Below are positions 2,801-37,569 of a stretch of DNA of 64,000 nt, piece by piece. How positions within the stretch are numbered: the first letter of the stretch is position 1; each line of letters begins with the position of its first letter. A program made the translations under genes and the position numbers. Under the pieces are notes generated by a model. It was given only the letters and a program-made list of their open reading frames with translations, searched no databases and was not told the origin of the DNA. Source of the DNA: Norana najaformis (Eukaryota; Annelida; Clitellata; Crassiclitellata; Hormogastridae); assembly GCA_964023275.1 (NCBI GenBank), contig OZ029914.1:42387924-42451923 (forward strand). Direction: 5' to 3'.

Positions 2801-2831
<31 letters not shown>

Positions 2832-4295
2832 TTATTATTATTTTTGTTGTTGCTGTTGCTGCTGTTGTTGTTATTGTTGTTGTTACCGCCGCATGGTTCA
2901 CCGCCGATATTTTCAAAGGACAACGATAATGTTGGAATGTAATTCGAACTCCTGACGCCTTGGTGACTGTAAGACGCGTTTACCATTAGCCATCTGAAAT
3001 AAATGACATAGAATGTTTTGCTCTTTAGAAGATAAAGAGGATGTGACATCAGCCGCTGGAGAATATGGTAGGGAAAGATTGTGACATTTAGTTTTTTAAA
3101 TAATGCAAAGCTTGGGATGATTGTCACATGCTAAACTCAGCGGCTAGGTTTACTGACGATTAGTAAAGAAATAAGTAGCAAATTTAGAATGTAAAAGTGT
3201 TAATCTTAGCCAAATTTCGACCATGTTTGGTTAGTAAAATGCAAGTGAACAGCGTTAAAGCGCCGCTTTTGTTACGTTGAGCTTCTTATCTTGTTTCAAG
3301 TAAACGAAGAGATGCTTCTTAAATTGCCACTGATGACGACGTTTGCTCAAATTAGTAATGTTCTCGCAAAATAATGGTAGTCTGTTGAGTTCAATCTTGA
3401 CCAACACGAAGCTTCATTTCCAGAATGTCTTGATCCCTTCATATATTTAAGGCTGAACCAAACGGCATACACTTACATGTAGTTTCTGCCGAATATTTGT
3501 GATGATTATGAAGTTGGTGGTGGAGGTGGTAGTGATGATGGCTGACGACGACGATGATGATCATCATCAGCGGAAAAATCATCATCAAGTACATCACCAT
3601 CATTTTTAACAATGCTGCTAAACTATAAACCATTCAATACAACACATCTTGGCAAATTACTTGTAGACGAGTGGAACGGAATATACATTCTTTGCAATGG
3701 CAAGATCTGCACCGACTACGAGGCCATGCGAATTCAGGACGAAATTTCCTGTGACTTTGATGCCACGAGTCTTGAAAGCAACGTGTCTTTCTCTTTGAAG
3801 ATGAATGGCGTTGAGAAACCTGTAAGAAAGCCGTGGCTGTATACGTTGCAACTGGAAGACATTGGCGAAAAGCTGGTGCAGTGCATCGTTAACACGGAGG
3901 CGGGAGTATCTGTGTCGGAAACTACCATTACGGTCATTTACGACCATAGACATCCACACGGGAACACAAATTCCTCGGAAGGTCTGTAACTAAATTCTAT
4001 GCTAACTCGACAAGAACATGTGCAATAATGGCGGATGCTTATAGTGGATGTTAGTAAAATTTGTAAAGCGCAAGAACATATGACCAAGTGAACCGTAGAA
4101 GCGATGACGCTAAATAAATTTGCGATTATAATAACGATTACGGTTAGCAATTTAGTATATCCATCGATGTTTAGCTTAAGGTATTTCTCTTTTTCCTCTT
4201 CCTCTTCTTCCTCTTCCTCCTCCTCTTCTTCTTCCTCCTCCTCCTCCTTTCTTCTTCCTCTTCTTCTTTCTTCTTCTTCCTCCTCTTCCTCCTCC

Positions 4296-4327
<32 letters not shown>

Positions 4328-7095
4328 CTCGTCCTCCTCCTCCTCCTCTTCTTCTTCTTCTTCTTCTTGATCGTTTTTAATAATATTCTGTCTATCTTGT
4401 AGATCAAGAGACGATAGTCATTCTGTGCAACGAACACGAGTGCGAAGAGAACGAAACAGTGGAGACGACGCAGACCATAACGTGTAGCCTGGGTATCAGT
4501 CGTGCGAATGAAGTCATAGAGATGCAGCTGAATGGCGTTACAGTGGGCAGCGCTGAGAAAAATTATTCGCATAAGATCGTCGAACCCCCGATCAATGGCA
4601 CCCTGCTCCTCGTTGTCTGCAATTCTTCGTCGATTGCCAACGACATTGCCTCCGTTCTACTTAATGTCAGCAATACAGGTAGCTTATAAAGTAGTAACAC
4701 TAATTGTAGTATCTAATGTAATAGTTATATTGGTGGTGGTAGTAGTAGTAGTAATAGTAGTAGTAGTAGTGGTAGTAGTAATAATAATAATAATAATGTT
4801 AATGGTAGTAGTAGTAATAATAATAATAATATTAATAATGGTGGTGTTGGTGTTGGTGGTGGTGGTGTTGTGGTGGTGTGGTGTTGGTAATAACAAGCGC
4901 ACCCTATACTAGTTTTCTCAAATTTTACAATAAACATTTATCTTTAACTAGAAATCATGCACATTTAACAAATCAAATTAGTATCATTGCGTCTTCGGCT
5001 TCTTGTGTTGAGAACTATGAGCTTGGGTATCGCAACTCTAACGAGAACATGAGTGATAAACATGCAGCTACCTTACAATCGGGGCCCTTTTACAGTTTCG
5101 GAGAGCCCCGGACCAATGCCAACATGAGGCCAATATGAGGCCCCCATCTCGATGCATGAACATCAAAAGCGTACTAAATCGCAATTGTGAATTATAATAC
5201 AAAAAACATAGAAATAGATATTATTAATTAATAATAATATCAAGGAAAATAATTCGAAAGATTTTGTTGTTAGTTACCGAATCAGAAATAGAAAATCTTT
5301 GGTTCAAATAAAAACATTTCTTTCTTATTTTAAAGTAGACGAACAACAGTATGTAAATTTGAGGCCCCTTACCACGTGAGGCCCGGGCCAAATGGTCCTG
5401 CTGGCCCCTTCTGATAGGGCCTGCTTACCATACTTTACCTCTGCTCTCATTTAGGTTCAGAAGCGGCATCTGGTAGGGTGGGATTTTCCTACGAGGAAGA
5501 ACATTTCTACAGTTCAGGTAAGGCCTCTTCTGTAAGGCATTGAGGTCTGTTTTCTCCAAGTGTAAGAACTTCAAGGAGCAAATGATTAGTGGTATCCGTC
5601 TCGTGGTGCTGAATATGTCCTGTCCTGACACTTATTACGATGGTCTGTGTCTCTCTATCTCTCTTTTATCGCTCTCTGTCTGTCTCTATCTTCCCATTCC
5701 AGCTAATTGTAAGTCCTAATCGTTATTGCATTTTGTAGCCCATTTAGTGGTAAAAGCGCCACTAGAAAGAGCAATAAATCTGAAACTTATTATATCCACT
5801 TTCATCCACCATCCGTGAAACATTTGTAAAGAGCCTTTTAAGAACTTCCGGAAACAGTACATCGTACATCGACCTTCATCCACCGCCTGTGAAATGTGGT
5901 ACGTGAAGCGACGCATCGCGTAAAACTAAAATCTGCTTATCAGCAGTCTCACTTTCGTCGTTTTGTTGTTTATAGTTTTCTTTAAATTCAACTCTAGCCC
6001 AGAACATGAACTTGCTCTTTTAAGCAATAAACGACGACTAGTTTCATTTAACCTCCTGTCTTAATACACTTTCAGATTTTGATCGCTACGACGATGCGAA
6101 GTCGAAGTTTCGAGACGAATCAAAATACGATGGTAAATATAGGCAGCACTGGGTTTTGTATGTTCAGGAAACGAGCCCAATATTTGGCTTAGATTTTTGT
6201 TAACAGTAAGAGCCTTGACTAAAACAATATGAGCATCGCATAATTTGTGAGCTTATGCTCTTGATGCGCGATGGAACAAATTAAAAGTCATCCAATTTTT
6301 CTGTAGCGATGCTACCGATAAATTCATTGAAAAATGAGCAGGTCGAGGTCATACGGTCGCTATATAAAACCGTGTACATTTACATTTTATGTGGCATTTT
6401 GTAATGCCCAGAACTCGCCAGAGTGCTACTGCAGCCATCTAGCGATTAACCAGGCCAGCTGCAACCACTTTTTCGTACTATCCTTTCACCTTTCGCCAGG
6501 TAAACTTCGAGCATTTCGTAAGCGATCGTTCTCCACCTCAACCACCTGTCGCTAATGAAGATGAAATTGTGAGGACGCAGAATGAAATGCAAACGCAATT
6601 GTAATCGTAATCGTAAACTTGAAATTCTAAAGCGCTACTTAAAAGCTAAGCACAAGGCACCAACTTAATGACGAGCGCTGCATTAAGTCCGCAGGATTGT
6701 CCAAATATGCCATGCCAAGAACCAAGCGCGGTTGCCAGGCGACCAGAGAGAGGAGGGGAGAGTATGCTAGGGTGGGTTATGTTTAAGCTTAGAGAAATGG
6801 GAAGACTGATCAGGGTGAAATTTCTTGAATAGGTGAGAATGTATACCTGTATCTGCATATGTCTGCTTCAGGTACTTAGTCGGGAGCAATATAGCATCTA
6901 AATAACATAAAGATAATTTAGCCAGTACAGTTTATGTTTTCATTTTGCTTGAGTTATTTTTAAAAATTTTGCACAGAATACTTTGCAGAGTTTCAAAACA
7001 CTTTGCATAGCAACGACGTCTTGGGCGGGCCAAAAAGTTTCGTCCTTCTTGAGCTCTTCGTCATCTTCTTCGGTGTCTGCGTGGCGCTAATATAA
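372..7095 (+). CDS. Gene A: five-Ig-domain surface protein with GPI-like C-terminus (5' partial)
   Basis: Predicted spliced gene with exons 372-764, 1344-1709, 2302-2652, 3667-3981, 4403-4678, 5455-5517, 6076-6132 and 6977-7095. All are bounded by AG/GT and all are phase 1. The first three Ig exons match Ig1-Ig3 of genes B and C in order and in motif pattern. Two more Ig exons, a short acidic tyrosine-rich stalk and a terminal exon follow. The terminal exon reads SNDVLGG, then a hydrophobic run ending exactly at TAA, which fits a GPI-anchor signal or a tail-less membrane anchor. No signal-peptide exon is visible in 1-371, so the start is probably off the window. The likely role is an extracellular recognition or adhesion protein. 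The exon structure is strong; ligand and immune role are inference. Confidence 0.8.
868..930 (+). repeat. Tandem repeat (8-bp unit CTATTCAT)
   Basis: About seven copies in the first intron seen of gene A, decaying at the 3' end. Confidence 0.85.
1344..1709 (+). CDS. Gene A exon, Ig2
   Basis: Acceptor CTCTGTAG, donor GTAAGT, 366 nt, phase 1 to 1. The Ig cysteines are in DVFVLNCSA and AYSCRLEF. These align with ELRCSV and KYSCKCYF of genes B/C Ig2. Several extra cysteines are present (HECGF, FVFCNK, SECDS, FKICS), as in the paralogue. Confidence 0.8.
1790..1893 (+). pseudogene. LINE pol C-terminal fragment
   Basis: Translation gives ETFAGVCPTIWNRLPNTLQ. It matches the common non-LTR retrotransposon C-terminal pattern (F-x-V-x-x-P-x-x-WN-x-LP). 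A short remnant in the intron after the Ig2 exon. Confidence 0.45.
2302..2652 (+). CDS. Gene A exon, Ig3
   Basis: Acceptor TTTTATTAG, donor GTAAGT, 351 nt, phase 1 to 1. It begins with the LCNxxxC motif (FLCNNMPCGD). The motif TVSCLAHGYPQPVF aligns with TVICSAEGYPYPNY of genes B/C Ig3, and the second Ig cysteine is in KITCNVSN. Confidence 0.8.
2796..2998 (-). mobile_element. tRNA-derived SINE with microsatellite tail
   Basis: On the minus strand a tRNA-like head lies at about 2998-2938, with box-A-like TGGCTAATGGTAAACGCG and box-B-like GAGTTCGAATTAC. A short body follows and then a CAA/TAA microsatellite (2884-2796). It sits in the intron between the Ig3 and Ig4 exons of gene A. Confidence 0.55.
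3495..3606. repeat. Degenerate GAT/CAT trinucleotide tract
   Basis: Interrupted GATGATGAT/CATCATCAT repeats just upstream of the Ig4 exon. Confidence 0.7.
3667..3981 (+). CDS. Gene A exon, Ig4
   Basis: Acceptor CTTGTAG, donor GTCTGT (weaker than the others), 315 nt, phase 1 to 1. It has the LCNxxxC start (YILCNGKICTD), then DEISCDF and KLVQCIVN as the Ig disulfide pair, and N-glycosylation sequons. It has no counterpart in genes B/C. Confidence 0.75.
4188..4369 (+). repeat. Polypyrimidine CTT/CTC tract
   Basis: About 180 bases of almost pure pyrimidine immediately before the acceptor of the Ig5 exon, so it may serve as an oversized polypyrimidine tract. The open frames across it are low-complexity artefacts. 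Confidence 0.9.
4403..4678 (+). CDS. Gene A exon, Ig5
   Basis: Acceptor ATCTTGTAG, donor GTAGCT, 276 nt, phase 1 to 1. It starts with the LCNxxxC motif (VILCNEHECEE), then TITCSL and LLVVCNSS as the likely Ig cysteine pair. It resembles exon 3667-3981, which suggests tandem exon duplication. Confidence 0.75.
4728..4886 (+). repeat. TAG/AAT/TGG trinucleotide tract
   Basis: GTAGTAGTA, AATAATAAT and GGTGGTGTT runs shortly after the Ig5 exon donor. Confidence 0.9.
5455..5517 (+). CDS. Gene A exon, acidic stalk 1
   Basis: A 63-nt phase 1 to 1 exon with acceptor CTCATTTAG and donor GTAAGG. It encodes a short segment with FSYEEEHFYSS. No fold is recognised; it is probably an extracellular stalk, because a membrane anchor follows only in the last exon. 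Confidence 0.6.
6076..6132 (+). CDS. Gene A exon, acidic stalk 2
   Basis: A 57-nt phase 1 to 1 exon with acceptor CACTTTCAG and donor GTAAAT. It encodes FDRYDDAKSKFRDESKYD, similar in composition to the previous stalk exon. Confidence 0.6.
6305..6390 (+). repeat. Dispersed repeat copy in gene A intron
   Basis: The words CATTGAAAAATGAG, GGTCGAGGTCATACG and GTGTACATTTACATTTT recur at 50430-50520 (same strand) and, inverted, around 60280-60390. It is a short interspersed element of unknown class. Confidence 0.55.
6500..6517 (+). CDS. Possible 18-nt micro-exon of gene A
   Basis: A strong polypyrimidine/AG acceptor (CACCTTTCGCCAG) is followed 18 nt later by a strong donor (GTAAGC). Phase 1 to 1 is kept, adding about six residues (KLRAF core). 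The flanking exons also join in frame without it, so it is optional. Reading on without the donor gives an alternative terminal frame ending near 6604. Confidence 0.25.
6977..7095 (+). CDS. Gene A terminal exon, GPI-signal-like C-terminus
   Basis: Acceptor TTTTGCACAG, phase 1 entry, TAA at 7093-7095. It encodes EYFAEFQ..., then small/polar residues SNDVLGG, a short PK spacer and a 17-residue hydrophobic run (VLLELFVIFFGVCVALI) that ends at the stop. No cytoplasmic residues follow. This fits a GPI-attachment signal; a tail-less transmembrane anchor is the alternative. Confidence 0.65.
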
Positions 7096-10548: not shown

Positions 10549-10700
10549 TTACTCTGAACTCCCAGATTTTGTGAGAAGAGGCGACGGGGGGCGCAGTGTG
10601 TGGTCGATACTTGCGTACACCACAGGTTCATGTGTACTGGGCAGGGTTGGCGGCGGATTTGTTGTTGGGAGTGGTCTAAATCCATTCATCTCCATGTATT
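10549..10700 (-). CDS. Gene B exon 8, C-terminal tail with ITIM-like motif
   Basis: The phase-1 acceptor CACAG at 10701-10705 joins in frame and gives EYMEMNGF (YxxM), a proline-rich linker, EPVVYASIDH (ITIM-like) and a TAA stop. A second AG at 10723 has a better pyrimidine tract but would need a different phase. The stop and the frame are the same either way. Confidence 0.7.
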
Positions 10701-13700
10701 CTGTGCCATCAGCGCCAACGTTCTACAAAAACAATCTCATAGCTTAAGGCAAGACTAGATTTAAATCTTGCACTGACTAGATTGACCTACATTAATATCG
10801 TTTTCTCTCGACAGAATCTGTAAAATGTGCTCTTAAAATGGACTGCAGCTTTATTCAGTTATGTGGTGCGGTTCTAAGACCACGCTTGGCTTCCAGAGTA
10901 AAATGATTCAACATGTAACATGGATTGTTTTGCTGAGCTAATATTCTCTTCCAAGTGGCTTAACGCTTACTTGTTTTTAAAAGGGAACTGAAGTTACGAA
11001 ATTTTACAGTATAATCCAGATAAATCGAGGAAAACAGTTTAAGTTTAGATTATATCATGCCTTTGATTGCGTCGTTACTATAATATCTTGAAAGTGTTAT
11101 GTTAAGGCGTCTAACAAAACTATGGCATCCAGTTAGAGTGCCCTGTTTCTTAGTATTCAACTGCTGAAAAGGCCATAATAACGAGCAAGTTATCTGAGAA
11201 TTAGCTCTAACCTTTAACATCACGCACATTACGAGCTTACCGGTGAGTATCGTATTTCTCTTTCGTGAAGACCATTTATTCTCTGCACATGTCTGTAGTC
11301 GAATGCAGCTTCGGCTATTCAATCAAATAAAAAATACACTGATTTGCAATTTAAGTTTTCTATTATTTTATCATTGCGAATTTGTGGCAGTTGTGCGCTA
11401 CAGAAAAAAAGCAAGACTGTGAGCAATGAATAAGCGAGGTATATCTGTGCACGGTATCTAGTTCCATGAAGTAGTTAATTACTTTTTGAACAATTAAGAA
11501 ATGTTTACCATTTTCTGCAATTCCTCCTATTGCCAAATTGTCTTCAATACGACAAACACGTGGATCCGGTGCCACATCTAAAAAAGAACATTTCAGATCG
11601 GTTGAACTGATCATTATATTAATCAGCAATGAAGATATAAGTCTGGGAATTTTAGCACATTGTCTACTTTGTCTGCATATCCACGAATTCCTAGTTCACT
11701 TATAAGATATGCAGTTGTCTAAAACTATTTTTAGCTTACAAAAGCACGGGAGGTGACCAAGTTTTGCGGCTCCCATATTTTTCCATGCGTCGGAGTTAAC
11801 TTAACGCGACTGAAATAGTCTATGAATAACTAATGCTTCTATAATTAGGCCTATGTTTTATTCTCAAGATGTTCGGCAACATTTTCAATATGTGTCAGCC
11901 CTAATGCTAAGTACTTATTAACACACAATTTCGATAAGAAATAAAACTTCCGAGTTAAGGCGTAGTTCAGCCTATGTCATAATTATTCAGCAAGCATGAA
12001 GAGCTTACGTAGGCTAGAGCAACAGAAGAAACAGTTTCAACATAAACGGCAAAGGAAACGGGGCTGCAACATAAAATTCGTCACATAAAATCCAGAAAAC
12101 AGGTAAGTCATAAAGATCTGCCTGTGAAGAAATTTAAAAAAAACATTTTACTTAATTTCTTACTCGTTTATGTGCTGGTCTGCGACTGTAAACAATATCT
12201 AAGTTTATGAATCAGCTTTATCATCAATACTTCAACGTTATTCGTTGAATCGTGTATTTGAACGCTTGTTTGTCATCTCTGAGTATTTTGAATACTATGT
12301 TGATATATTTAAGAAACAGATTATGCAGCGGAGGTTTTACCTGGCCTCATATCCAAGTAGTCCGGAATTCCTCTGATGCCCACGTAAGCCCCAAAACGGT
12401 CCTCGTCTGCCATAGCTTCCGCCCCTCTCTCTCCGACTACGAAAACATTAGCATTGTAATTTCATGTGGCATAACCACATGCTGTTGCAGCGCATGTTAA
12501 GCAATACCTAGAAGAACTACACAATGAGTGATTCTCTGTCCTAAAAGGTAAATTACAGTGAATTTGCTGTGACACCCGACCAGTTACGTCTATGAGCATT
12601 TTAGTAAATCTTCCGATACGTAGCCAACGCTAAAGTCAATGACATGAAATTGATGAAGACAGGGTAATGTGGCAATCAGGCCGTAGTGAATCAGCCTTTC
12701 ACTTCTGTCTTGTAGGCTCAATTTTCTCTCGAGTAGTCTGGTATTTAGGATGGGCATCGTGTTATTGAGTCTTTCTTCAGCCAGTGTTGAACAATTGTTA
12801 GTGTATATTAAATTTCAGCTAAAAATTCTAACAACCTCACTCTTGCGCATTTGACGATTAGCATAGCTGACACGGGCGTATGCTAAGTAAACCTGAACTA
12901 CTTTAAGAGAGAACTAGTCACTCCAGGCCGTTACTCTTGCTCTTTTTGAATTTCTTCACTTTGACATATCCAATCTGCGACATAGGTAAGACTCCTCCCT
13001 CTCGGGAGTGGCCCGGAGGTAGACTCATGCAAAATGCACTCGTCCATCAAGTATATCGATACAGTTTCCTTCACCAGTTCAAAGAATGCTGTAGTGCCCT
13101 CTCCCTCCGCTCCTGGGGTCGGGGTTCCAGGATTTCACCCTGCAGGCAACAGGGCGACCCACTCTGAGCCGTTCACTTGCTTTACAGGCGGCCGCTTGGC
13201 ACTCTCCAATTCGAACCGGGCCACCGGCACCTGTCCCCTCAGATGCTCCATCGTAGCCCATCGACAATGATATATGACAGCCCTCCACCCCGGATTACAC
13301 ACTCTGTTCCGAGAACGACCAGTGATCAGGGTACAATTCACTACTGTACTGATCGGTTGGCATTCGACCCGTCTCTTTCAATATTTCCGCATTAAGTGGG
13401 CAGTGGTGGGCCCATTCCCCCTCTGCCTGTACGGAATACAGGCAAGGCCAGTGAACAGCCTGTTAGTTGCCTGACAGAACAGATAGAGCAGACGGGTGTT
13501 GCAGCACCCCGCTCAGGGAGTTGAAGTTGACCTCACCACTCGGCTACATGCTTTTCGCTTCCGCCACGAGGAGACCGGACAGCAGAAACCACTAAGTTCT
13601 TCCTCTCATGGTATCCAACCAGTCAACCTCTGCTAAACTAAACCTAAATAGTCACGTGTTTTCTCCGCTTTCTGCCAATCACCCGGAGTGAATATTTAAT

Positions 13701-16700
13701 CAAATTAATTTAAGCATGGGGAAAGTGAAAGACATTCTACTGAAACTTTACAACATGTGTTAATCTCAAAAACTGGATTTGAGTATCGAATAAGTAAAAT
13801 AAATTTCTGTAATGTTTGACCTGCTTCTCCATGCTCTTGAACATTAACCTGCCTTCTGAATCGTGAAGCTATCTTCGCAGTCCACTCTATTGATAAAAAG
13901 GCCGTAATAGTTAAACTAGAAACGATTCACTAAGTTAAGCCGATGTTGACAGTATAGACAACAGCTATTAACACAAAGACGTTCGTGGCCGAAACTTAGT
14001 CTCTACTAAAACCAAACGTTTATATGAAATGCGCATTTAGTTTTTCACTATTTGCACCGATGCCTCCAATATGAATAATTACAATCTTCGTAAATCTAAA
14101 GCAGTCTATGAAAAAACACAAACATTGAGATATTTCTTATGATTCACGATGTCTTATAATATATCGACTTCCAGATGATCAACAATTTAGGCCTACGTAA
14201 ATATTATAAAATGATGCATATCTGACGACTTCGACTGATGTAACTAATTAAACTGACTAAGTAACCACACTAAACACCTGACAACCATGCACAAAACCTT
14301 TAACCTTTACTGGGCAATCTCTCCCTTCTATCAGAGTATGCTAAAATGTATAATTATTTTCTAATTCTAACTAATATTCAGCTGTAATTCGAACAAAGCC
14401 ATTGCAAATCAAAGTTTATACGTAAATAATCAAAACAGTAACTCTACACAACAATTCTAGAAGTTATGGATACTACAAAAATTTATAAAGTGTCAGCTAC
14501 ACAAAGAGAACTTATAATTAATTACAGAAAACTATTATAATTAATTACCCAAAACTTTGATCCCCTATTCCTAAGATAGAAAGCTCTCTGCCTCACTGAC
14601 CATCGACAAACAGTCTCTTCTACCCACACCTGTCGATTTTGTACGCAAACTAACTAGATTAAGTAAACATTAAAGAAAACGGTACTAATAAATTAATATA
14701 TAACCAAATAAAATAAGCTAATAAACTCTTAGTTATGACATGACGCACCGCGCAATGAAACTTACGGACAAAATATTTTTATCACTTACCTTTAACATGT
14801 CTCAGTCTGATTACAAAGATTGTGAAGCATAATAAAATGGCCACTATTCCCACCAATATCGTTGCAGTGGTTAGAATTGAAACAGGAGCTAGATAAATAA
14901 CAACCTAAACGGCTAAACATACTGTTTGGAATACATACTCAAATAATTCATAGATGTAAAAGAAAACTGTGTCCTATAAAATACTAGGGTACTTCAGTCA
15001 TCCAAAAGTCAGGTGAGTTTATGCTAAGTGTATAGGCCTAAATGGCTAAAATATAGAAACCTACAGAAGATGAATAAAAGGCTCACAATTCGAAAAATTT
15101 TATTTCGGATAAAATAGTACTGAAATGCTGTAGAAGAATTTCTAGATTGTGTGTACAAACGTCATAGAAGACGCGATATATTAGCTCAGAACATCAATTT
15201 AGCAAAAAAATTGCCAAATAATTATAGATCTGAGTTTTATAACATCAGCAATTGTTCAGTGCCATATTCTGAGGGTGCTAAAATATAACTGGATGTGTAT
15301 GAGACAGCAAAGGGACCCGAACAATATAACAAAAAACTGTAAACATACGTTTGACTGTAAATGTGATCCTCCCTGTGATTTCAGTGTTACTTTCGCTGTT
15401 GCTTGCTTCACATTCAAATAAATATGCCGAGTCTCGTATCATTTCTTTCGTGATATAAAGTACTGGTGCATGGCGAATAGCAGATACCTTGTCCTCTAAA
15501 TTCCTCCACGTGTAATTTGGATATGGATAGCCTTCAGCTGAACAAATGACTGTTTCGCCAGGATAAAAGACATCCTTCATAGGAATTATAATGACATTTC
15601 TCGGATCATCTTCGAATAAACCATTACAAATTAACCATTACATATGGAAATACATTTTCATAGTCGTGATACTACAGTATCAGCAAATTTCACACTTTGG
15701 CAATAAAATCCCAAGAAGTTTCTTAATGTGACAGTGACACAGTGTTCAGCAAAAATAATTGAATGTTATCGAAAACTAACCTACAAGTACTCTAGTAAAA
15801 CGACAATTTTTGATTATTCTAAGATAAAATTTGCTGAAAGAACTCACGTTTCACAAGAATAATCGGTGATGTCCAAGTATACTGGTAGTCAGAAACCTTA
15901 CATTCCGAAGTTCCTAGTTGATAGCACGATTGTCTGAAGTAACACTTGCACGAATATTTTGAATTATGTAGACTAGAATCAATCTTTACAGAAACTGACG
16001 ACACCACTTCGGTCTCTGTGACATTGTCGATATATTCGTTGCTAATCATTTCTCGTTGTTCTGTTCCGCCTTTCGTCCATTCCATCAACGGAGCAATATT
16101 ACCATAGTATTTAACACTACATCTGAGTTCGATGTATTCGCCTTCGTTAAATACGACTTGGTTGATGTTACACTGCGGATCAGAAGCTGCAATTTATTCC
16201 AATTTTACAAAAATCAACCTAATCGTAGATTGTGTTAATTCAGTGATTAATTAATCTAACAATGAAAGAAATAATGTTTAAAGAATGGAAGATGAAAGAA
16301 AGAAAGAAGAATGAATGAATGAAACACAAACAGACAAATCTATGGTCAAAGTGATGAACTCAAGTTCTTACCCAAAACGATAAGCTCCAATATCGTCTCA
16401 TTTGATTTTTTAATACTCTGATTGAGTTGTTCTGATCTTAAACATTTATAATAACCAGCGTTGCTCGTATCAACCCATCTGATGTGCAAAATCCACTTCC
16501 CATTTGCATTTTTTGTCCAGTTGATGTTGGATTTAAATTCCGTCCGTATATCCACTCCATTATAAATCCTATTCCAACTTCTTGAACCGTTATTTGCTGT
16601 TGAAGACAAAAGATCCCAATACTGAACATCAGTGCCGTCTTCTGCACCGCAAAACAGTTCAACGGATTTTCCAGCAACTACTGCGATGGTCGATGAAGCG

Positions 16701-17213
16701 TTGTAAAATACTGCTGTACTCAACCCTATAATATAACGTATTAAGCATGATAAGGACATTGAGACGTTTGGCAAAAAACGTCTTCTACATATGGTAAGTT
16801 TCTTGACTGCGAGGACTGTGATGCTGCCCAGAATAACAATGGCTACATAAAACTAAGCGGAAGCACTTCTTTTGACTTAAATTAGAATGTTAATAATTGA
16901 AAACAATGAATAGTACTTTAGCGTCCATTGTTAAAAGGTATCGAATTTAATGTCAAAAGTCTTCAATGAACTTATTAAGAATAGGTCTATGTCTAGTTAA
17001 GCAATACATAATTTCATAATTAAATGTCAATTACAATCAAACAGGATTACACAGTATTCAGGTTCTATGATTAATTTCTAATTGTGTGATATCCATTAAA
17101 TATTATGAACTACTTATAGGTATCTTTTTAGGTTGCAGCTACCACAGTTGTAGAACTATATACCTACCCATATAGGATGTCATGAACAAACTTATAACCA
17201 AACTGTTCATCAT
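10549..17213 (-). CDS. Gene B: three-Ig receptor with ITIM-like/YxxM cytoplasmic tail
   Basis: Minus-strand spliced gene. Exons in transcript order: 17213-17168 (signal), 16725-16372 (Ig1), 16186-15848 (Ig2), 15609-15349 (Ig3), 14888-14790 (TM), 12436-12341, 11577-11509 and 10700-10549 (tail). All introns are phase 1; the sum is 1416 nt, 471 residues. It is a type I membrane receptor with N-glycosylation sequons. The tail has YVGI, YLDM, YMEM and VVYASI. VVYASI fits the ITIM consensus [IVLS]xYxx[ILV], and YxxM is the known PI3-kinase SH2-binding pattern. It lies head to head with gene C, and its ectodomain is identical up to the last bases of Ig3. The structure is strong; an immune role is inference. 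Confidence 0.85.
11509..11577 (-). CDS. Gene B exon 7, cytoplasmic tail
   Basis: 69 nt, phase 1 to 1, acceptor TCTTTTTTTAG, donor GTAAAC. Encodes DVAPDPRVCRIEDNLAIGG and a few more residues. No tyrosine; a linker between the motif-bearing exons. Confidence 0.65.
12341..12436 (-). CDS. Gene B exon 6, cytoplasmic tail
   Basis: 96 nt, phase 1 to 1, acceptor TTTCGTAG, donor GTAAAA. Encodes an acidic segment with GAYVGIRGIPDYLDM, that is YVGI and the YxxM motif YLDM. No counterpart in gene C. Confidence 0.72.
12960..13640. repeat. GC-richer block in gene B intron, probable old repeat
   Basis: About 680 bases clearly richer in G+C than the surrounding AT-rich intron. It carries a box-B-like GGTTCGAATT on the minus strand. 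The open frames in it overlap on both strands and match nothing I recognise. Probably a decayed mobile element. Confidence 0.35.
14790..14888 (-). CDS. Gene B exon 5, transmembrane segment
   Basis: 99 nt, acceptor TTTATCTAG, donor GTAAGT. Encodes SILTTATILVGIVAILLCF and then a basic stop-transfer (RLRHVK). It differs from the gene C exon at about 14 positions. Confidence 0.88.
15349..15609 (-). CDS. Gene B exon 4, Ig3
   Basis: 261 nt, phase 1 to 1, donor GTATGT. TVICSAEGYPYPNYTW and AYLFECEASN mark a compact I-set-like Ig domain. It is identical to gene C except in the last eight bases, where the conversion tract ends. Confidence 0.88.
15848..16186 (-). CDS. Gene B exon 3, Ig2
   Basis: 339 nt, phase 1 to 1, acceptor AATTGCAG, donor GTGAGT. 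ELRCSV, MEWTKG and KYSCKCYF mark the Ig core. Extra cysteines (PQCN, QSCYQ, SECK) suggest further disulfides. Identical to 20939-21277. Confidence 0.9.
16372..16725 (-). CDS. Gene B exon 2, Ig1 (V-like)
   Basis: 354 nt, phase 1 to 1, acceptor TATTATAG, donor GTAAGA. Ig hallmarks: ELFCGAED, VQYWDLL, and the second cysteine in DTSNAGYYKC. Several N-glycosylation sequons (NAS, NGS, NQS, NET). Identical to 20400-20753. Confidence 0.9.
17168..17213 (-). CDS. Gene B exon 1, signal peptide
   Basis: Starts at ATGATGAAC and encodes MMNSLVISLFMTSYM with donor GTAGGT (phase 1). Joined to the next exon it gives a signal peptide with a likely cleavage after LSTA (S-x-A). The mirror copy is at 19912-19957. 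Confidence 0.7.
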
Positions 17214-17507
17214 GGCTTACGAAAACCAGATATTTAGACTTTCTACTGATTAGACTGACAGTAGAAACGAATTCTGTCTAGTGATATATCTACCGACATC
17301 AAGAGTTATGTTGTCTCTTCACATCGACGAAATTTTCATTGTGCTGTGTAATAAACTCTAAGTGTAATATTGCACATGTCGGATTTTGGTGCAGTAAATG
17401 GAGTCTATAGGCCTATATATCTTTTGGATCATAGCCTCTGTGTTAGCCAAAATGCGAAATTGAATGTGTTTGTTTAAGCTTTCACTATTGAGTATAACAT
17501 GTGGATC

Positions 17508-19617
17508 ATATATCCGCACCACTAGAAGGTCAGATATTTTATTTCTTTTTGTAAACAAGCATTCAAACATGCGTGTACCTTGAAATTATATAGCGCCATT
17601 TGCATAATTTGAAAGTGCTGTTTTAAAGATTCTACATGATCATAGATATATGATTCCAGTGATGTTCCAGTGTTTTAGAAAGCAATGCAAAAATTGCAAT
17701 TACAGAATGTGTTTTTACGGCTACACGAATGAAAGGACTCATTTAAAGCAGCAACGATTAGCCACCATTACAGTTGAAATCTCAATACTGGTCATCTGCC
17801 CTGGCAGTATGGTTTCAAATGTATTTGCGCTTCAGTTTTTACTGCTTTAAACTTATCATTTCAGTTGTGTAGCATGAGTTTTACCCTATGTAAATTCGAA
17901 TCCTCTGAACCGATTGTTCAAACGTTTATGTGGTAATTTCTTTGCCCAGAAAAGTGTGGATGCTATCGGAATACAAGTGGCGTCATCACCCATACCCAAC
18001 CTATGCATTCTTTATACTTTTTTCTGCAGGGACTGCCGACAGGCGAAACTCTTTGACGAAGTGTTGATCATTATCCCTCCTTATATTAGCAGTTAGAACG
18101 TTAACGGGTCTACTCGACACGCTGGCAGCCCTCGCCCGTCAGAAGGGGTGGCAGGACCCCTTAGAGCGACACCCAGCGAAATCCCTGCAAACCCCGGAGT
18201 GAGGGCGAGAAATCAGACTATGGGATTGATTTCAGTGGAAAACTGAGGCTTGAGACGCTGAATATCCGGCGCTCTCTTCTGGAACCTTGTAAGTTTAGCC
18301 TATTGATGAAAGAACTTGAGAATACGAGTAAAGCCTTCATAGGCCTTCAGAAGGTGAGATGGCTTGACGTGGGAAAGAAAACCATCGGGACGTGTATGTT
18401 CCCCAAATGAACAAGCCCTCGAAGGATTGAAGAAGACCTTGAATGTGTATTCCCTCTTCCAGACCTGGTCAGAATATCAGTAATCACAGTGGGTCGTATC
18501 GGCTGACTTGATGCATTTAACTCGGTGGATAGGTCGTTTACTCCGGAACTGGGATCTCCCGGTCAAGATTGTCGATCTTAGCTGTGCGCGAGTCGGGGAG
18601 GAAACATTAGACTGGCTTAGAATGGACATTTGATTAAGGCAGAGTGACCTAGTGGCCCAAAACTTTATGCGACACCAATAAACGAATACAGAAGCCTTAA
18701 ATAAGGAGCTCGACATCTTCAATATGTGGTGCCTCGAGAGATTCCTGTGGATTTCCTATATAGACCATGTCAACAACTTGATTATGAGGAGGAGAATGGC
18801 GAAGGTAGCAGTCTCCGCCACAATCGAAAAAACGTGGCCTGGACTTTTTTGGGCATGTTGCACAAGCTCCTGAAGACGAGGACCAAAGGCGAGCCTGGTG
18901 GCAGTAATAAGCAAGTCCCCGAAAGACTGGAGGTAACCACAAGGCAGAACCAGAAATACATGTACTAGAGTCATGGAGAGGATCTGCCAGCCTTAAATTT
19001 CGTTACGGTGGATTGTCTTTAGGCTGAGAGAAATAGGAAGGCGGCAGATTGAACGGATCACGGTAAGAGTTCTTGAAAAGGTGGAACTTCAGTTTTGAGT
19101 GGAATACCTGTGTATACTCAGAAGCCTCTGACTGATTGCGTTAAAATTCGACATGACGGATCATGTTGTCAAGGTCTCAATTTTAAGCCAAGGCTGGTAC
19201 CGAACGGGTTTTTATGGCCCTCGTATTACTTTCTATTTTACAAAAACCTTGAGCTTACCTTGCATGGATGAACCCATATTTGTAAGGTTGCTGCATAATA
19301 AAGAAACTGCACAAACATATTTTGGTATTTGATGTTTAATTGTTAAAAGCTCTGTCAGCTGCTGCCATAAACGTCATGAATATTATTATCAGTGATGCCT
19401 ACGACATATTAATATATTTTGGAGGCCATGGCTTTGGATACAGCTGGTATCACGTTGTATCATAGTACTGTTGTGTTACATCGTGGCACCTGTGGCCGCC
19501 TTTCTAGCAGTTTTAATGTTTAAAAAGGCGTTTTATAGTTTTCAGGTATATGCGTGCTCGATTTAATTTTATGCACACACAAGTTGATTATATGACACTC
19601 TAGTAGTCCGGATATAC
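17508..19617. other. 2.1-kb loop between the inverted arms
   Basis: Next to each arm (about 17508-17600 and 19535-19617) the sequences are still recognisably homologous in inverted orientation but diverged, including a GGCGCTATA/GGCGTTTTATA word. The middle is a decayed LINE. As the common upstream region of two divergent genes it may hold shared or separate promoters; none is recognisable. Confidence 0.6.
18200..18980 (+). pseudogene. Decayed LINE (endonuclease-like start and pol C-terminal part)
   Basis: Near 18245-18415 a frame reads GKLRLETLNIRR ... IGLQKVRWLDVGK, resembling the endonuclease N-terminus of animal LINEs (GKL...E.RW.G.G). Near 18705-18800 it reads LDIFNMWCLERFLWIS, resembling the conserved C-terminal LEAF.MRCLRRIL.I stretch. 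Most of the reverse transcriptase between them is missing and the frames are broken. Confidence 0.5.
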
Positions 19618-19911
19618 GATCCACATGTTATACTCAATAGTGAAAGCTTAAACAAACACATTCAATTTCGCATTTTGGCTAACACAGAGGCTATGATCCA
19701 AAAGATATATAGGCCTATAGACTCCATTTACTGCACCAAAATCCGACATGTGCAATATTACACTTAGAGTTTATTACACAGCACAATGAAAATTTCGTCG
19801 ATGTGAAGAGACAACATAACTCTTGATGTCGGTAGATATATCACTAGACAGAATTCGTTTCTACTGTCAGTCTAATCAGTAGAAAGTCTAAATATCTGGT
19901 TTTCGTAAGCC

Positions 19912-19957
19912 ATGATGAACAGTTTGGTTATAAGTTTGTTCATGACATCCTATATGG
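19912..19957 (+). CDS. Gene C exon 1, signal peptide
   Basis: ATGATGAAC start, hydrophobic SLVISLFM core, donor GTAGGT, phase 1. A second in-frame ATG at 19915 could be used instead. Confidence 0.7.
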
Positions 19958-22900
19958 GTAGGTATATAGTTCTACAACTGTGGTAGCTGCAACCTAAAAA
20001 GATACCTATAAGTAGTTCATAATATTTAATGGATATCACACAATTAGAAATTAATCATAGAACCTGAATACTGTGTAATCCTGTTTGATTGTAATTGACA
20101 TTTAATTATGAAATTATGTATTGCTTAACTAGACATAGACCTATTCTTAATAAGTTCATTGAAGACTTTTGACATTAAATTCGATACCTTTTAACAATGG
20201 ACGCTAAAGTACTATTCATTGTTTTCAATTATTAACATTCTAATTTAAGTCAAAAGAAGTGCTTCCGCTTAGTTTTATGTAGCCATTGTTATTCTGGGCA
20301 GCATCACAGTCCTCGCAGTCAAGAAACTTACCATATGTAGAAGACGTTTTTTGCCAAACGTCTCAATGTCCTTATCATGCTTAATACGTTATATTATAGG
20401 GTTGAGTACAGCAGTATTTTACAACGCTTCATCGACCATCGCAGTAGTTGCTGGAAAATCCGTTGAACTGTTTTGCGGTGCAGAAGACGGCACTGATGTT
20501 CAGTATTGGGATCTTTTGTCTTCAACAGCAAATAACGGTTCAAGAAGTTGGAATAGGATTTATAATGGAGTGGATATACGGACGGAATTTAAATCCAACA
20601 TCAACTGGACAAAAAATGCAAATGGGAAGTGGATTTTGCACATCAGATGGGTTGATACGAGCAACGCTGGTTATTATAAATGTTTAAGATCAGAACAACT
20701 CAATCAGAGTATTAAAAAATCAAATGAGACGATATTGGAGCTTATCGTTTTGGGTAAGAACTTGAGTTCATCACTTTGACCATAGATTTGTCTGTTTGTG
20801 TTTCATTCATTCATTCTTCTTTCTTTCTTTCATCTTCCATTCTTTAAACATTATTTCTTTCATTGTTAGATTAATTAATCACTGAATTAACACAATCTAC
20901 GATTAGGTTGATTTTTGTAAAATTGGAATAAATTGCAGCTTCTGATCCGCAGTGTAACATCAACCAAGTCGTATTTAACGAAGGCGAATACATCGAACTC
21001 AGATGTAGTGTTAAATACTATGGTAATATTGCTCCGTTGATGGAATGGACGAAAGGCGGAACAGAACAACGAGAAATGATTAGCAACGAATATATCGACA
21101 ATGTCACAGAGACCGAAGTGGTGTCGTCAGTTTCTGTAAAGATTGATTCTAGTCTACATAATTCAAAATATTCGTGCAAGTGTTACTTCAGACAATCGTG
21201 CTATCAACTAGGAACTTCGGAATGTAAGGTTTCTGACTACCAGTATACTTGGACATCACCGATTATTCTTGTGAAACGTGAGTTCTTTCAGCAAATTTTA
21301 TCTTAGAATAATCAAAAATTGTCGTTTTACTAGAGTACTTGTAGGTTAGTTTTCGATAACATTCAATTATTTTTGCTGAACACTGTGTCACTGTCACATT
21401 AAGAAACTTCTTGGGATTTTATTGCCAAAGTGTGAAATTTGCTGATACTGTAGTATCACGACTATGAAAATGTATTTCCATATGTAATGGTTAATTTGTA
21501 ATGGTTTATTCGAAGATGATCCGAGAAATGTCATTATAATTCCTATGAAGGATGTCTTTTATCCTGGCGAAACAGTCATTTGTTCAGCTGAAGGCTATCC
21601 ATATCCAAATTACACGTGGAGGAATTTAGAGGACAAGGTATCTGCTATTCGCCATGCACCAGTACTTTATATCACGAAAGAAATGATACGAGACTCGGCA
21701 TATTTATTTGAATGTGAAGCAAGCAACAGCGAAAGTAACACTGAAATCACAGGGAGGATCACATTTACGGTCAAAGGTATGCTTGCAGTTTGTTTTATGT
21801 TGATAGGCGCTGCTTCGCTGTCCCGTGCACATCTGCTTATACTGTAACATCTGCAGAAAACGCTATTGTGTAACTGCTAATGTTTTACAATTCACATCAT
21901 ATTTTTTAGAATTTTAACGAAATTCATGACAAGAGCTATCGATGACTTTACCAATCACAAAATTAAAGCATCTGAAAATTAGTTTGCCTGAAATAAAATT
22001 GATAAAATTCAATTATGTATGAAATCCGTTTAAAGAGTATTTCGAATATAGAAAGTGAAATGCTGATCAAAAAGTATTTTTGGAAAAATAATATAAAGGT
22101 TTTTTAAAAGCATTTTAAGAACACAAATTAATGGTATTTTTAACTGCTTTTAAAGATATTTTTGGAAAATATTTTGTATTCTTGCATTTAACATGTGTTT
22201 ATATTCTAGTGAATAATTAGATGTTCATTGTATTTGAGAACTGGTTTTTAGGTTTATTTTAGGTCATTTCACAAGCTTGACATATAAGTGACATTGACAT
22301 TGCTACTTTTTAACCTTTTACTTTTGAAAATTACATAGTAATTGGCCTCATAGAGCTTTGTACTGTACTGAAGCGAATTTTGAACTTTGTGTCTTTGAAC
22401 TCTTCGTTGCTTGAGTTTGATTTTTAAGTGTATGAATTCCTAGTAGTTTTCTATTTGGTATTACTCAACCCTGTTGCCAAAATCACAGGTGCAAACCTTA
22501 AAGGCTGCTTATTAAAAGGTGTAAACAATTGAATTTTAGTAGGCCTAGCTGAATTAGTGACACATGGACCAAATTGCGTTATGATCTTTTCTAAACCGGG
22601 CTATCGATATTGTACATATAGGTGTTTGTTGCTTTATCCTTTAAAGCGGCTATCCGCTGTATACCACGCGGGCATATTCGCTTACTTTAGATAAATAAAT
22701 AATAATGTAAAGCTTCAAAAGACGTTTAAACGAGCCAAAGAAAAACTTTCAATCTTACAGTTAGCACTGCTTGTGAGAATCCATGTAGTAGTAACATTTG
22801 ACTAGAAGTTAGGTCAGAACAATACAGTGGTATAAGTGAAATATTGAAAAGTGACTTTAAATGAGTGCAAAAACTAAGCTTTAGCCTAGTATATTGTCTC

Positions 22901-24959
22901 GAAAGTTATAGCCTCAGTTTTAGTCTGTGGAGAAAACTTGCAAAGGATAAGAACTAAAACAAGCCATTTCGAACCCGATTTAGTACTGGAGATTATTTAA
23001 TTGTTCTTACTTATACCGGGTTTCATAACCTTAAATTACTGTACAACACAATACTATACAAGTGCTGATGCCGACATACAAAGCCTACATCATCAACGCT
23101 AACCCTACAGAGGATTAATTCAACTTGGGGACAGTCACTGCTCTAAATGTTTAAACAGACAATATCATGGCACTGGCATGATGTTGCATCTTTTTCTCAA
23201 GCGTCAAATTTAGCGGTTTCTGTGTTAGTCTGTGATGGCAAATCAAGTGGCAGACATAAGACGTAGGCTGCAACCGGTGAAACATTCGGTATTGGAATAG
23301 TTAGCAATTTCTTTGACAAGTGACCGAAGAAAATTCTCGATATCATTTTTAGGTTATCGTCTCCAGCTGGAAAGTAGTTGTGAAAGTATTTTGAAAACAG
23401 ACTCTAATGCCTGAATATACTACATTTCAAAATATTTTTAAAATACTAAAACAAAACACTCCAGAACAATATTTTTAAAATACGAAGTAAAATACTACAT
23501 AAAAATACTATTCCCAAATAGTATTTAGCACATCACTGATGAAGTTGTGAGCCATTTAGTTCGTCAATTAAATTTTTTCTGTTGCAGTCGTGTAAGCCTA
23601 GAGAATCAATCCCCGTCTCAGACTTAAAATCAATCCTCACCCTTAAACTTATTAATCAATATTCAACCAGATCATCCGATTGTCATCCTTTGATAGTGCC
23701 AAAGACCGGAACTGTTCTTTGTGAACTAGCTTATCGGCTGCTGGACCTAAATATGGCTCTCTCCTCCTGCATTCGTTCGTTTTGGTCGGTCTCTTACCTC
23801 ATTTCGGCCACAACTTATGACATGCCTTTTTGAGTTGTATGACCCACCGTATAGTTACCTTTCTGTCTCAGTGAACTGACTTCCTGGGTAATGATCTGAC
23901 TGTGCCTTGATTTTGGTGCACCAGCGGTTGATGTCTTGTGCATTAGACACCGGCGCTATAGAAGTTGCTAGTTAGTAAATAATTCTAATACACACAGCAC
24001 ATACTTGCTTCATATTTGCATGCCTGCTGTAGCAAATAATTATTGTATGTTATACGGTTTTCTTATGCATCAACAAATTATTTGAGTATGTATTCTGAGC
24101 AGTGTATTTAAACGATTAGATTGTTATTTATCAAGCTTCTGTTTCCATTCTAACCACTGCAACGATATTGGTGGGGATACTAGCCATTTTATTATGTTTC
24201 ACTGTCTCTGCATTCAGACTGGGACTTGTGAAAGGTAAGAGCAAATACAATTTAAGGATTCTTATAAAAGTTAGTTACAGTGTGTATAATCATAACTATA
24301 TGTATTAATTTATTTTATCGTTCATGTGTTTAATCTCGTTTGGTATTTTTTTGTTTATGTTATTGTTTGCTACCATAATTTGGTAAATAAGGACATATAT
24401 ATTAGTCTAGTTTTAAACCACTGAAGTCCACGACAGTGCATCCGACAATAAGAAGAGCAAGTCTGGAAACAGAAGTATCACGAGAGCAGAGTTTGTTTTG
24501 TATAATAGAGTCACTATTGGTCATAATCTTCAAAAGAAATTCTGACTTGTTTCTTTATTTCTTTTTCATTTCAGTCCTTGTAGTTGACGTTGTAAATCGG
24601 CGATTTGTCACTACCCGATAAATAGTGCTTTATTTGCTCGAATTTTTCAAGGTTTAAAGAGGAGAAACGACAATCCACAGCCAGTGGAGGAAAACGCAGA
24701 CGTGGAAGCAGAATCAGGTTTGTCGCACAATATCCCTGGGTTCGGTGAGGGCGGTGTTCCAGGCGATACCATCGAAGGCGTTTCGACCTCCAGCGAGAAC
24801 GACATATACGCTGAAATCCGTGAATTACCAGTATATGGAAATCTGAAAGTATCGGATCCAACTTCACCGTCTAGTCATCCAGACACAAATTATATGGAAC
24901 TGTGTGGAAGACATCCCGCGATGCCATCCGTTTATACGAGACTTGAAGAACTTGTATAG
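19912..24959 (+). CDS. Gene C: three-Ig receptor with four-YxxL/I cytoplasmic tail
   Basis: Plus-strand spliced gene with exons 19912-19957, 20400-20753, 20939-21277, 21516-21776, 24136-24234 and 24652-24959, all phase 1. The sum is 1407 nt, 468 residues. It is a type I membrane protein: signal peptide, three Ig domains identical to gene B except at the end of Ig3, a transmembrane helix and a tail of about 100 residues in one exon. The tail carries YAEI, YGNL, YMEL and YTRL. TNYMEL resembles the ITSM pattern and SVYTRL fits ITIM. The spacing of YAEI and YGNL (five residues) is close to, but shorter than, an ITAM. Likely a signalling partner or antagonist of gene B on the same ligand; this is inference. 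Confidence 0.87.
20400..20753 (+). CDS. Gene C exon 2, Ig1 (V-like)
   Basis: 354 nt, phase 1 to 1. Same sequence as gene B exon 2; Ig cysteines in ELFCGAED and AGYYKC. Without exon 1 an alternative start at 20366 (MSLSCLIR...) would read into this exon, but its hydrophobic core is weaker. Confidence 0.9.
20939..21277 (+). CDS. Gene C exon 3, Ig2
   Basis: 339 nt, phase 1 to 1, identical to gene B exon 3, with the same extra cysteines. Confidence 0.9.
21516..21776 (+). CDS. Gene C exon 4, Ig3
   Basis: 261 nt, acceptor TTATTCGAAG (purine-rich, weak), donor GTATGC. Identical to gene B to base 21768, then ACG GTC AAA G against ACA GTC AAA C. Confidence 0.88.
23915..23972 (-). repeat. TATAGCGCC-family element in gene C intron
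   Basis: Inverted copy: GCGGTTGATGTCTTGTGCA then GGCGCTATAGAAG. It belongs to the family with core TATAGCGCC plus AAGGCATCAGTCGATGGTCGC, and is part of the extra intron sequence absent from gene B. Confidence 0.5.
24136..24234 (+). CDS. Gene C exon 5, transmembrane segment
   Basis: 99 nt, acceptor TTTATCAAG, donor GTAAGA. Encodes SILTTATILVGILAILLCF followed by RLGLVK. The preceding intron is about 1.9 kb longer than its gene B counterpart. Confidence 0.9.
24652..24959 (+). CDS. Gene C exon 6, cytoplasmic tail
   Basis: Phase-1 acceptor TTTTTCAAG, 308 nt to TAG. It starts with a basic stretch (LKRRND) next to the membrane, then an acidic/glycine linker, then NDIYAEIRELPVYGNL, DTNYMELC and PSVYTRLEELV at the very end. 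No similarity to the gene B tail beyond the YxxΦ motifs. Confidence 0.85.
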
Positions 24960-25328: not shown

Positions 25329-25550
25329 ACAATGAGCGCTTGCCAACAGGGGTAAGATAGGGACATTTGCCCCTCCTGGATTTCATATCAAAACATTCTA
25401 GTCCACATCATGCTGTGATGACGTGTCCTAATTTTTCACGTTATGCTCCCTTATGCAAAAATTTTGTGGAAGCCCATGCCTGGTTTTGTTGCTAATTTGC
25501 CTTTGCTGTGTTTAGGCTTCACCCGATAGATCCTGTGACCACTTCTTGAC

Positions 25551-25869
25551 GATAAACATTGTCGCTATCATCACTCCGTGATGATAAATATTGTCACTAT
25601 CATCACTCCGTGATGATGAATATTGTCACTATCATCACTTCGTGATGATGAATATTGTCGCTATCATCACTCCGTGATGATGAATATTGTCACTATCATC
25701 ACTTCGTGATGATGAATATTGTCACTATCATCACTCCGTGATAATGAATATTGTCGCTATCATCACTCCGTGATGATGAATATTGTCACTATCATCACTC
25801 CGTGATAATGAATATTGTCACTATCATCACTTCGTGATGATGAATATTGTCACTATCATCACTCCGTGT
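25551..25869. repeat. 32-bp minisatellite, about 10 copies, hairpin in every unit
   Basis: Units start with ATTGTC at 25558, 25590, 25622 and so on. Each contains ATCATCAC-TCC-GTGATGAT, an 8-bp stem with a 3-base loop. Copies differ at a few sites (GTCGC/GTCAC, TCC/TTC, GATGAT/GATAAT). Confidence 0.95.
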
Positions 25870-32985: not shown

Positions 32986-33639
32986 ACGCGACTTCTTTCC
33001 GGCAAGCAAATTATGAGATGCCTGAGTGATGTTGGAACAAGCTAAGACTGCAGAAGACGGGCGCCGCATGAAGCCGTGCTTCAGGCTTCGTTTAATATCC
33101 CTTCCTGCAGCTACCTGCGTCTTTTTTCCTGTCGTCCTTAGAGGCTTTTCTTCCTTCCTTCCACTCTTCATACCCGTCGCTTTCCCGTTTCTTTTTATGT
33201 ACGAAAGACCAACACGCAACTGACCAGCACATGATATATTTGTGCATATATTCGTGTCAGACAAAGCGACAATATGTCGATCATATAGTCTAGAATATTC
33301 AACAAACCGACATATATAGTCTTAACGTATTGCGCTGTTCTTCTGTGTTCTCCTCTGCTCTCGTTTTTCTTCCGAGAAAATGAAAGGATAAAGCGAGAAA
33401 AGCACAGAAGATCAGAGCCGAGAAAGACGACTTTTTATTAGGAGACAGCATAATTGCTGGATGTATTAGCAAGTCGTAGCCATGGCGACGGAGGCTGAGC
33501 AGCTGGTGTCATTTCATGCAGTTGACGTCAATCACCTGTCAGATGTTCGAATCCAGTTGAGCTCTTGATGCTTGTGTCGGTAATTCCATTGCCTAATTAA
33601 GAAAAATGATGTCATCAGTTTCGGTGAAAAATATCTCAC

Positions 33640-34060
33640 AATAGTATCGATGTATGGATTCGAAACATGGACCATGAGAAAGGAGGATATCAAGAGATTG
33701 GAGGCCTTCGAAATGTGGATTTTGCGCAGGATGGATGAAGTTAGTTGGATGAAACACATAAGAAACGAGAAGGTGCTGAAAAGATTTGGGGAAGAAAGAT
33801 CCATGATAGCTACATGAAGAGGCGACAGAGGAAATGGATTGGTCACATACTGAGAGGGGACTCACCCTTAAGAAACGTAATTGAGGACAGAACGGGGGGA
33901 AGAAGACAAGGGGAAGACCCAGACAGATGCTGCTGGATTGGATGACGTCGGACGGATACAGCAGGATGAAATAAGAAGCTCAGCACCGACAGGAATGGCA
34001 TCATCGGACGTTTGAACCTGCCTGAGGCCAGAGAACCAGAAGAAGTAAGAAGTAACGATA
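33640..34060 (+). pseudogene. LINE reverse-transcriptase C-terminal remnant
   Basis: Broken frames read YGFETWTMRKEDIKRLEAF, MWILRRMDEVSWM and RQRKWIGHILRGDSPLRNVI, then a GGRRQG basic region. This matches the C-terminal region of animal endonuclease/reverse-transcriptase LINEs (YGSETW ... LEAFEMW..RRM ... W.GHILR). At least one frameshift; not functional. Confidence 0.7.
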
Positions 34061-37475: not shown

Positions 37476-37569
37476 TGCTGATCGAAGAGGCGATCGGCCT
37501 TTAACAGCTACAGGGTGTAACCATGCAGACCTAACTATAGTAACACTCGACTAGGAATAAATATTTAAT

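Follow-up and report, generated by a model that had tools for sequence, protein, structure and literature searches.

Introduction

Paired receptors are defined by an inhibitory partner carrying an ITIM and a short-tailed activating partner with an Arg or Lys in its transmembrane (TM) segment, the two having strongly conserved ectodomains, neighbouring genes, overlapping expression, and a shared ligand (PMC3533184). One such set of genes, SIGLEC11 and SIGLEC16, stands head-to-head about 9 kb apart, and in humans a tract of about 2 kb, made of upstream DNA plus the head, has been converted between them, a process that keeps their ligand preference similar (PMC5701461). The definition has its exceptions, because CEACAM3 is termed a paired receptor and has its own ITAM-like tail (PMC5112662), so that a short tail and a charged TM segment are not universal among paired receptors. 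Among invertebrate chordates, FcoR of Botryllus schlosseri combines Ig domains and a TM segment with a tail that carries an ITIM, a hemITAM, or a Yxx[ILV] motif (PMC12065747).

Here we describe two neighbouring genes, B and C, of Norana najaformis, found in a stretch of 64,000 nucleotides that was analyzed as a whole and is called the window. The gene pair, its diverged homologous flanks, and a perfectly identical tract between these flanks can be read directly from the DNA, and they probably reflect an old inverted pair whose head was lately overwritten by gene conversion.

The Divergent Gene Pair

Genes B (17213 to 10549, minus strand) and C (19912 to 24959, plus strand) are divergent and head-to-head, with start codons 2,698 bp apart (Table 1). 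Their models, which are predictions, were drawn by eye from the sequence and then checked by script; in doing so, the exon coordinates of the first-pass annotation were reproduced, together with its estimate of about 14 differing bases in the 99 bp TM exons, which turns out to be exact. All modelled introns are GT-AG with junctions in frame, the introns that precede the first tail exon are in phase 1 in both genes, and the modelled exons, which were picked to be open, contain neither a stop nor a frameshift. Both genes begin with a 46 bp exon, followed by Ig exons of 354, 339, and 261 bp and by the TM exon; C then has a single tail exon (308 bp), and B has four (96, 69, 74, and 174 bp) that were placed by splice prediction alone. 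The predicted proteins are 503 (B) and 468 (C) residues long, and residues 1–333 are identical, as expected from the earlier claim that both genes encode the same signal peptide and the same three Ig domains.

Table 1. Features of the B/C Locus (Window Coordinates)
Feature	Position	Strand	Basis or remark
Gene B exon 1, candidate signal peptide	17168..17213	-	ATG to G|GTAGGT, phase 1
Gene B exon 2, Ig1	16372..16725	-	V-set best stretch, residues 27-115, just under Pfam cut-off
Gene B exon 3, Ig2	15848..16186	-	Ig_3 best stretch, residues 142-214
Gene B exon 4, Ig3	15349..15609	-	weak sub-cutoff Ig models, 262-294; contactin alignment, 236-329 of shared head
Gene B exon 5, transmembrane	14790..14888	-	hydropathy; 14/99 bases unlike gene C
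Gene B tail exon, AYVGI and DYLDM	12341..12436	-	predicted splice sites in phase
Gene B tail exon	11509..11577	-	predicted splice sites
Gene B tail exon, DYRHV	11241..11314	-	predicted splice sites
Gene B last tail exon with stop, EYMEM and VVYASI	10549..10722	-	predicted splice sites
Gene C exon 1, candidate signal peptide	19912..19957	+	gene model
Gene C exon 2, Ig1	20400..20753	+	gene model; Pfam
Gene C exon 3, Ig2	20939..21277	+	gene model; Pfam
Gene C exon 4, Ig3	21516..21776	+	gene model; Pfam; contactin alignment
Gene C exon 5, transmembrane	24136..24234	+	gene model; hydropathy
Gene C tail exon with stop, DIYAEI, PVYGNL, TNYMEL, and SVYTRL	24652..24959	+	predicted gene model
Inferred converted tract, B arm	15357..17507	-	2,151 bp, 100% identical to C arm
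Inferred converted tract, C arm	19618..21768	+	100% identical to B arm
Inner flank, B arm	17509..17601	-	68% vs 19523-19616; 0/300 shuffles reach score
Inner flank, C arm	19523..19616	+	pairs with B inner flank
Outer flank, B arm	15207..15355	-	71% vs 21770-21915; 0/300 shuffles reach score
Outer flank, C arm	21770..21915	+	pairs with B outer flank

The Identical Tract and Its Edges

The two arms are identical base by base at 2,151 of 2,151 bp, 992 of them in coding sequence and 1,159 in introns or upstream DNA. From a point 294 bp upstream of the ATG the tract runs to 8 bp short of the donor that closes the last Ig exon, covering almost all of the head and none of the tail. Its edges are sharp, identity falling at once to about 70%, and homology persists on both sides: the inner flanks align over 95 columns and the outer flanks over 150, at Jukes-Cantor distances of 0.37–0.41. 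All comparisons of arm segments with shuffled DNA (eight tests) used 300 dinucleotide shuffles each, and for the inner flank the margin over chance is modest (its score is 37, while shuffles reached at most 33 in the 400 bp test). Homology reappears in the TM region, at 78% over 252 columns with none of 300 shuffles as high, and a separate alignment gives 82% over 199 bp (E 2e-53). Beyond these near flanks no clear homology was detected, with scores as good reached by 278 of 300 shuffles farther inward, 31 farther outward, 11 after the TM region, and 32 in the rest of the intron. At the divergence of the TM exons, a stretch of 2,151 bp would be free of differences with a probability of about 10^-142. 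Compared with the first-pass account, the identical block is thus larger than the coding head, sharp-edged, and flanked on both sides by diverged homologous DNA.

The Shared Head and Transmembrane Region

In Pfam, Ig_3 (E 5e-15 for gene C) has three passing stretches, only the best of which, over Ig2, is placed; Ig_2 and I-set also score above their cut-offs, V-set stays just under its own with its best stretch over Ig1, and no sushi domain is listed for either gene. Sequence matches in the PDB are weak, contactin-5 being the best (E 1.5e-5), followed by Roundabout 1, contactin-2, and neuroplastin, with CD86 (E 0.0047) and PD-1 ligand 2 (E 0.47) further down and no Siglec among the best 60 of 62 matches with E up to 1. 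From these matches the Ig domain type is best described as generic, and they say little on function. A search of a protein database with gene C gave 5,479 candidates, all with E above 10, and because the collection is seemingly poor in animal proteins this absence of homologues means little. A single-sequence AlphaFold model of Ig1 is beta-rich, with a mean pLDDT of 51.9, a low confidence that was too poor for a fold search. The Ig2 exon encodes six cysteines, i.e., more than the canonical pair, which makes for an unusual Ig domain.

The N-terminus of both proteins looks like a signal peptide, while falling below the hydropathy cut-off of 1.6 in a 19-residue window. Hydropathy places one hydrophobic helix after Ig3 in each protein, and inspection of the modelled proteins found no charged residue in this TM stretch of B or C. 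Between the TM exons, dS is 0.26 and dN 0.14, i.e., a dN/dS of 0.54 calculated from few sites (28 synonymous and 71 other, including the phase base carried over from the exon before), with no confidence interval.

The Cytoplasmic Tails

The modelled tails of B (137 residues) and C (101 residues) give a local alignment score of 33, no better than chance (shuffle mean 29.6, P 0.24), which agrees with the earlier statement that they do not align. A shared ancestry of the tails is unsupported, both for the whole tails and for the last B exon against the C tail (P 0.19).

Tyrosine motifs of the Yxx[ILVM] type are enriched in both tails, comprising five of the six tyrosines in B (P 0.0009) and all four in C (P 0.00175), although these and the following P values are optimistic because we selected the patterns while looking at the sequence and applied seven of them to each tail. 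The B tail has two YxxM sites (P 0.008) and one ITIM-type site, VVYASI, not rarer than chance (P 0.21). In the C tail, YMEL and YTRL stand at ITAM spacing (P 0.008), and the tyrosine of YTRL also belongs to an ITIM-type site, SVYTRL, likewise not rarer than chance (P 0.19); the spacing of a second pair, YAEI and YGNL, falls one residue short of that of an ITAM, and TNYMEL is ITSM-like (P 0.04). Once phosphorylated, the B tail would engage SHP-type phosphatases through its ITIM-type site and p85 through the two YxxM sites, and the C tail may engage Syk through the ITAM-spaced tyrosine pair.

In these models both tails carry mixed motifs, and either of them may be the activating or the inhibitory one. 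The first-pass description of one head on two different tails stands at the level of sequence, with SH2-type tyrosine motifs abundant in both, but neither the motifs nor the uncharged TM segments point to opposed signalling.

Gene Conversion as the Proposed Origin

The best explanation of the locus, which we consider probable, is that of an old inverted pair with a recently converted head. An old inverted duplication would have produced two divergently transcribed Ig receptor genes, which with time would have diverged by about 30% in flank and intron DNA and by 14% in the TM exons, ending up with tails that show no detectable similarity. A recent ectopic gene conversion between the inverted arms would then have copied 2,151 bp of one gene onto the other, taking in the DNA just upstream, the candidate signal peptide, and all of the three Ig domains except the final three codons of the Ig3 exon. 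In old paralogues, an identity that rises abruptly from about 70% to exactly 100% and drops back, introns included, is, judged from sequence, the signature of such an event. Purifying selection is ruled out as the cause of the identity, since 1,159 of the 2,151 identical bases are non-coding and coding constraint cannot explain them. The earlier interpretation of one head with two tails holds at the sequence level, but it had overlooked conversion as the best account of the identity.

Regarding function, both genes would be expressed, plausibly in the same cells because the 294 bp upstream of the ATG are common to B and C, and both receptors would bind the same ligand. The two phosphorylated tails may recruit different SH2 proteins, and a single ligand would then yield two outputs in the manner of paired receptors, the heads being held alike by conversion. 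A more speculative idea, to which we attach little probability, is that the arms serve not only as a substrate of conversion but also as a genetic switch, in which a crossover between them could invert the spacer and swap the upstream regulatory DNA between the tails; if so, both orientations may be present among individuals or haemocyte lineages, which would then differ in the output beside the shared head.

The perfect identity might instead have arisen in the assembly, by collapse of similar ectodomain tracts or by filling of one arm from the other, in which case the pair would be real and its identity would not. A collapse, too, would be expected to leave sharp ends and not a single difference in 2,151 bp, but assemblers would not ordinarily merge sequences that lie as far apart as these flanks, which differ by about 30%; any collapsed tracts must therefore have been nearly identical already, and this in itself would need conversion. 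In addition, the window contains no N, and the TM exons and tails are distinct, hence the second gene is no copy artefact, and we regard an artefactual identity as quite unlikely. The same holds for an inverted-read (hairpin) artefact, given that the spacer of about 2.1 kb between the arms has no inverted homology except the 95 bp inner flanks and that the flanks differ. Sharp edges and full identity would equally be left by a recent inverted duplication or cassette insertion that placed a 2.15 kb ectodomain block before an unrelated TM gene, but beyond either edge of the block diverged homology runs on with order and orientation unchanged, and the TM exons, too, are homologous, so that the partners must have been paralogues of this structure before the block became identical. 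Because of this homology on both sides we reject the recent insertion of an ectodomain cassette, which keeps only a very slight probability.

Two other readings concern what the genes do. Only one of them may be functional, the other being a decaying or silent donor of conversion, as SIGLEC16P is for SIGLEC11; the non-functional SIGLEC16P allele that converted SIGLEC11 is a precedent in the available part of that paper (PMC5701461), a just-copied core cannot show independent constraint, and the B tail is scattered over four small predicted exons. This is nonetheless unlikely, as the open reading of the modelled exons holds for both genes (bearing in mind how the models were picked), divergence is 14% in the TM exons, compared with about 30% in the flanks nearby, with the dN/dS given above (few sites, no confidence interval), and tyrosine motifs are enriched in both tails. 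Somewhat less doubtful, yet still not the reading we favor, is that these are Ig proteins of adhesion or guidance type, not immune receptors, the pair then providing two adhesion outputs. The best solved-sequence matches, to contactin-5, Roundabout 1, contactin-2, and neuroplastin, point this way, all of them weak, but the Ig domain is generic, CD86 and PD-1 ligand 2 are also among the PDB matches, and tails with tyrosine motifs on a matched head would be more typical of immune-type pairs.

The Rest of the Window

A third gene, A (372–7095, plus strand), runs toward gene B and has eight candidate exons, most of them open in the phase-1 frame. It is probably Ig-like, a label given by eye and from weak tblastn matches (E 0.16 and 2.4) to a model that excludes the 5′ end and includes two candidate exons without an AG acceptor at their placed start. 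In its last exon the stop comes immediately after the codons of a hydrophobic C-terminus, which suggests a GPI-anchored or tailless product.

The spacer between B and C holds a decayed element (18165–19000) with a frame that we take to recall a LINE endonuclease, and two fragments, 33584–33942 (plus strand) and 37236–37550 (minus strand), presumably recall C-terminal parts of LINEs. Pfam, run on 60 hand-picked ORFs of the window, returned seven families with E up to 0.05 and one member each, namely PARP (0.00089), SelP_N (0.0035), Ig_PDGFR_d4 (0.0038), Gag_p24_C (0.016), RIFIN, EBNA2_Core, and CmpB. The Ig match excepted, we take these to be mostly low-complexity or chance matches; no endonuclease, reverse-transcriptase, or LINE C-terminal family is among the seven, and no neighbouring gene was identified by domain among the 60 ORFs. 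Rfam gave 0 matches at gathering score in the window.

Tandem repeats occur at several places. A 24-bp repeat of about 27 copies (40674–41325), whose unit includes TAGGCCTA, a string present 33 times in the whole window, has open frames of 246 and 232 residues on the plus strand and 234 on the minus strand. A 32-bp repeat (25540–25868; 10 copies at 93%) lies some 580 bp downstream of gene C, and minisatellite units of 37 and 51 bp are interleaved at 44507–44967, with matches of 95–99%. Over the window the observed/expected CpG ratio is 0.83; vertebrates show strong CpG depletion, and by this value alone the DNA is likely to be from an invertebrate.

Comparison with Known Receptor Pairs

Set beside the definition of paired receptors in the available part of PMC3533184, genes B and C have strongly conserved ectodomains, identical over the first 333 residues, and are neighbours with divergent starts 2,698 bp apart. 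VVYASI in B and SVYTRL in C both fit the ITIM pattern, but as single matches they are not rarer than chance (P 0.21 and 0.19). Neither B nor C is a short-tailed activating partner with a charged TM segment as described there, their tails having 137 and 101 residues. The locus looks built to act as a paired receptor, but we do not class it among the classical ones. In having motifs in the tails of both partners it resembles CEACAM1/CEACAM3, with ITIM/ITSM in CEACAM1 and an ITAM-like motif in CEACAM3, and the CEACAM pairs of Xenopus, which, unlike B and C, belong to a vertebrate family (PMC5112662, available part).

Among invertebrates, the FF and FcoR genes of Botryllus are likewise adjacent, and there co-expressed, but they are two families that may heterodimerise and not one head with two tails; FcoR also has a sushi domain, whereas none is listed for B and C, and the term gene conversion is absent from the text (PMC12065747). 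The oyster receptor CgIgIT2, from haemolymph, is similar in being an invertebrate Ig receptor with a TM segment and an ITAM in its own tail, but it has five Ig domains against three in B and C, and the word paired does not occur in the review that describes it (PMC11999971). In the available parts of these two papers no shared-head pair is described. The allorecognition Ig family of Hydractinia is comparable as a cluster of Ig-type receptors in a family with both ITAM and ITIM (PMC11999971, PMC12065747). Its members, in the portions available, are V-set/I-set proteins of allorecognition, unlike B and C. To our knowledge, no shared-head pair occurs in this family.

None of the open-access literature matches listed, as far as their available text goes, announces an invertebrate head-to-head pair with an identical head, and the terms paired receptors, gene conversion, and invertebrate together gave no match there. 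The first-pass annotation knew of no described invertebrate locus of this layout, and among the listed matches this holds; the layout as such is known from the vertebrate pair SIGLEC11/SIGLEC16 (PMC5701461, available part).

That pair is the closest parallel in layout, since it shares with B and C the head-to-head genes, the Ig ectodomains, the converted upstream-plus-head tract, and the different signalling ends. The step in identity also fits this type, with 100% over 2,151 bp against 68–71% in the near flanks. It differs in that the SIGLEC genes lie about 9 kb apart, while the start codons of B and C are 2.7 kb apart, and in that its members are primate sialic-acid lectins, the activating partner signalling through an ITAM adaptor, whereas B and C have uncharged TM segments and tyrosine tails of their own.

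If confirmed, the locus would place one-head/two-tail pairs matched by conversion outside the vertebrates, apparently independent of SIGLEC11/16, and would allow a test of the idea that counter-balanced receptor pairs are a general way of meeting pathogens that turn inhibitory receptors to their own use. It would also offer a compact locus for watching conversion keep specificity matched while tails diverge. Finally, the own tyrosine tails of both partners depart from the textbook scheme of ITIM versus charged TM, a departure for which CEACAM1/CEACAM3, in the parts of the paper available, is a vertebrate precedent.
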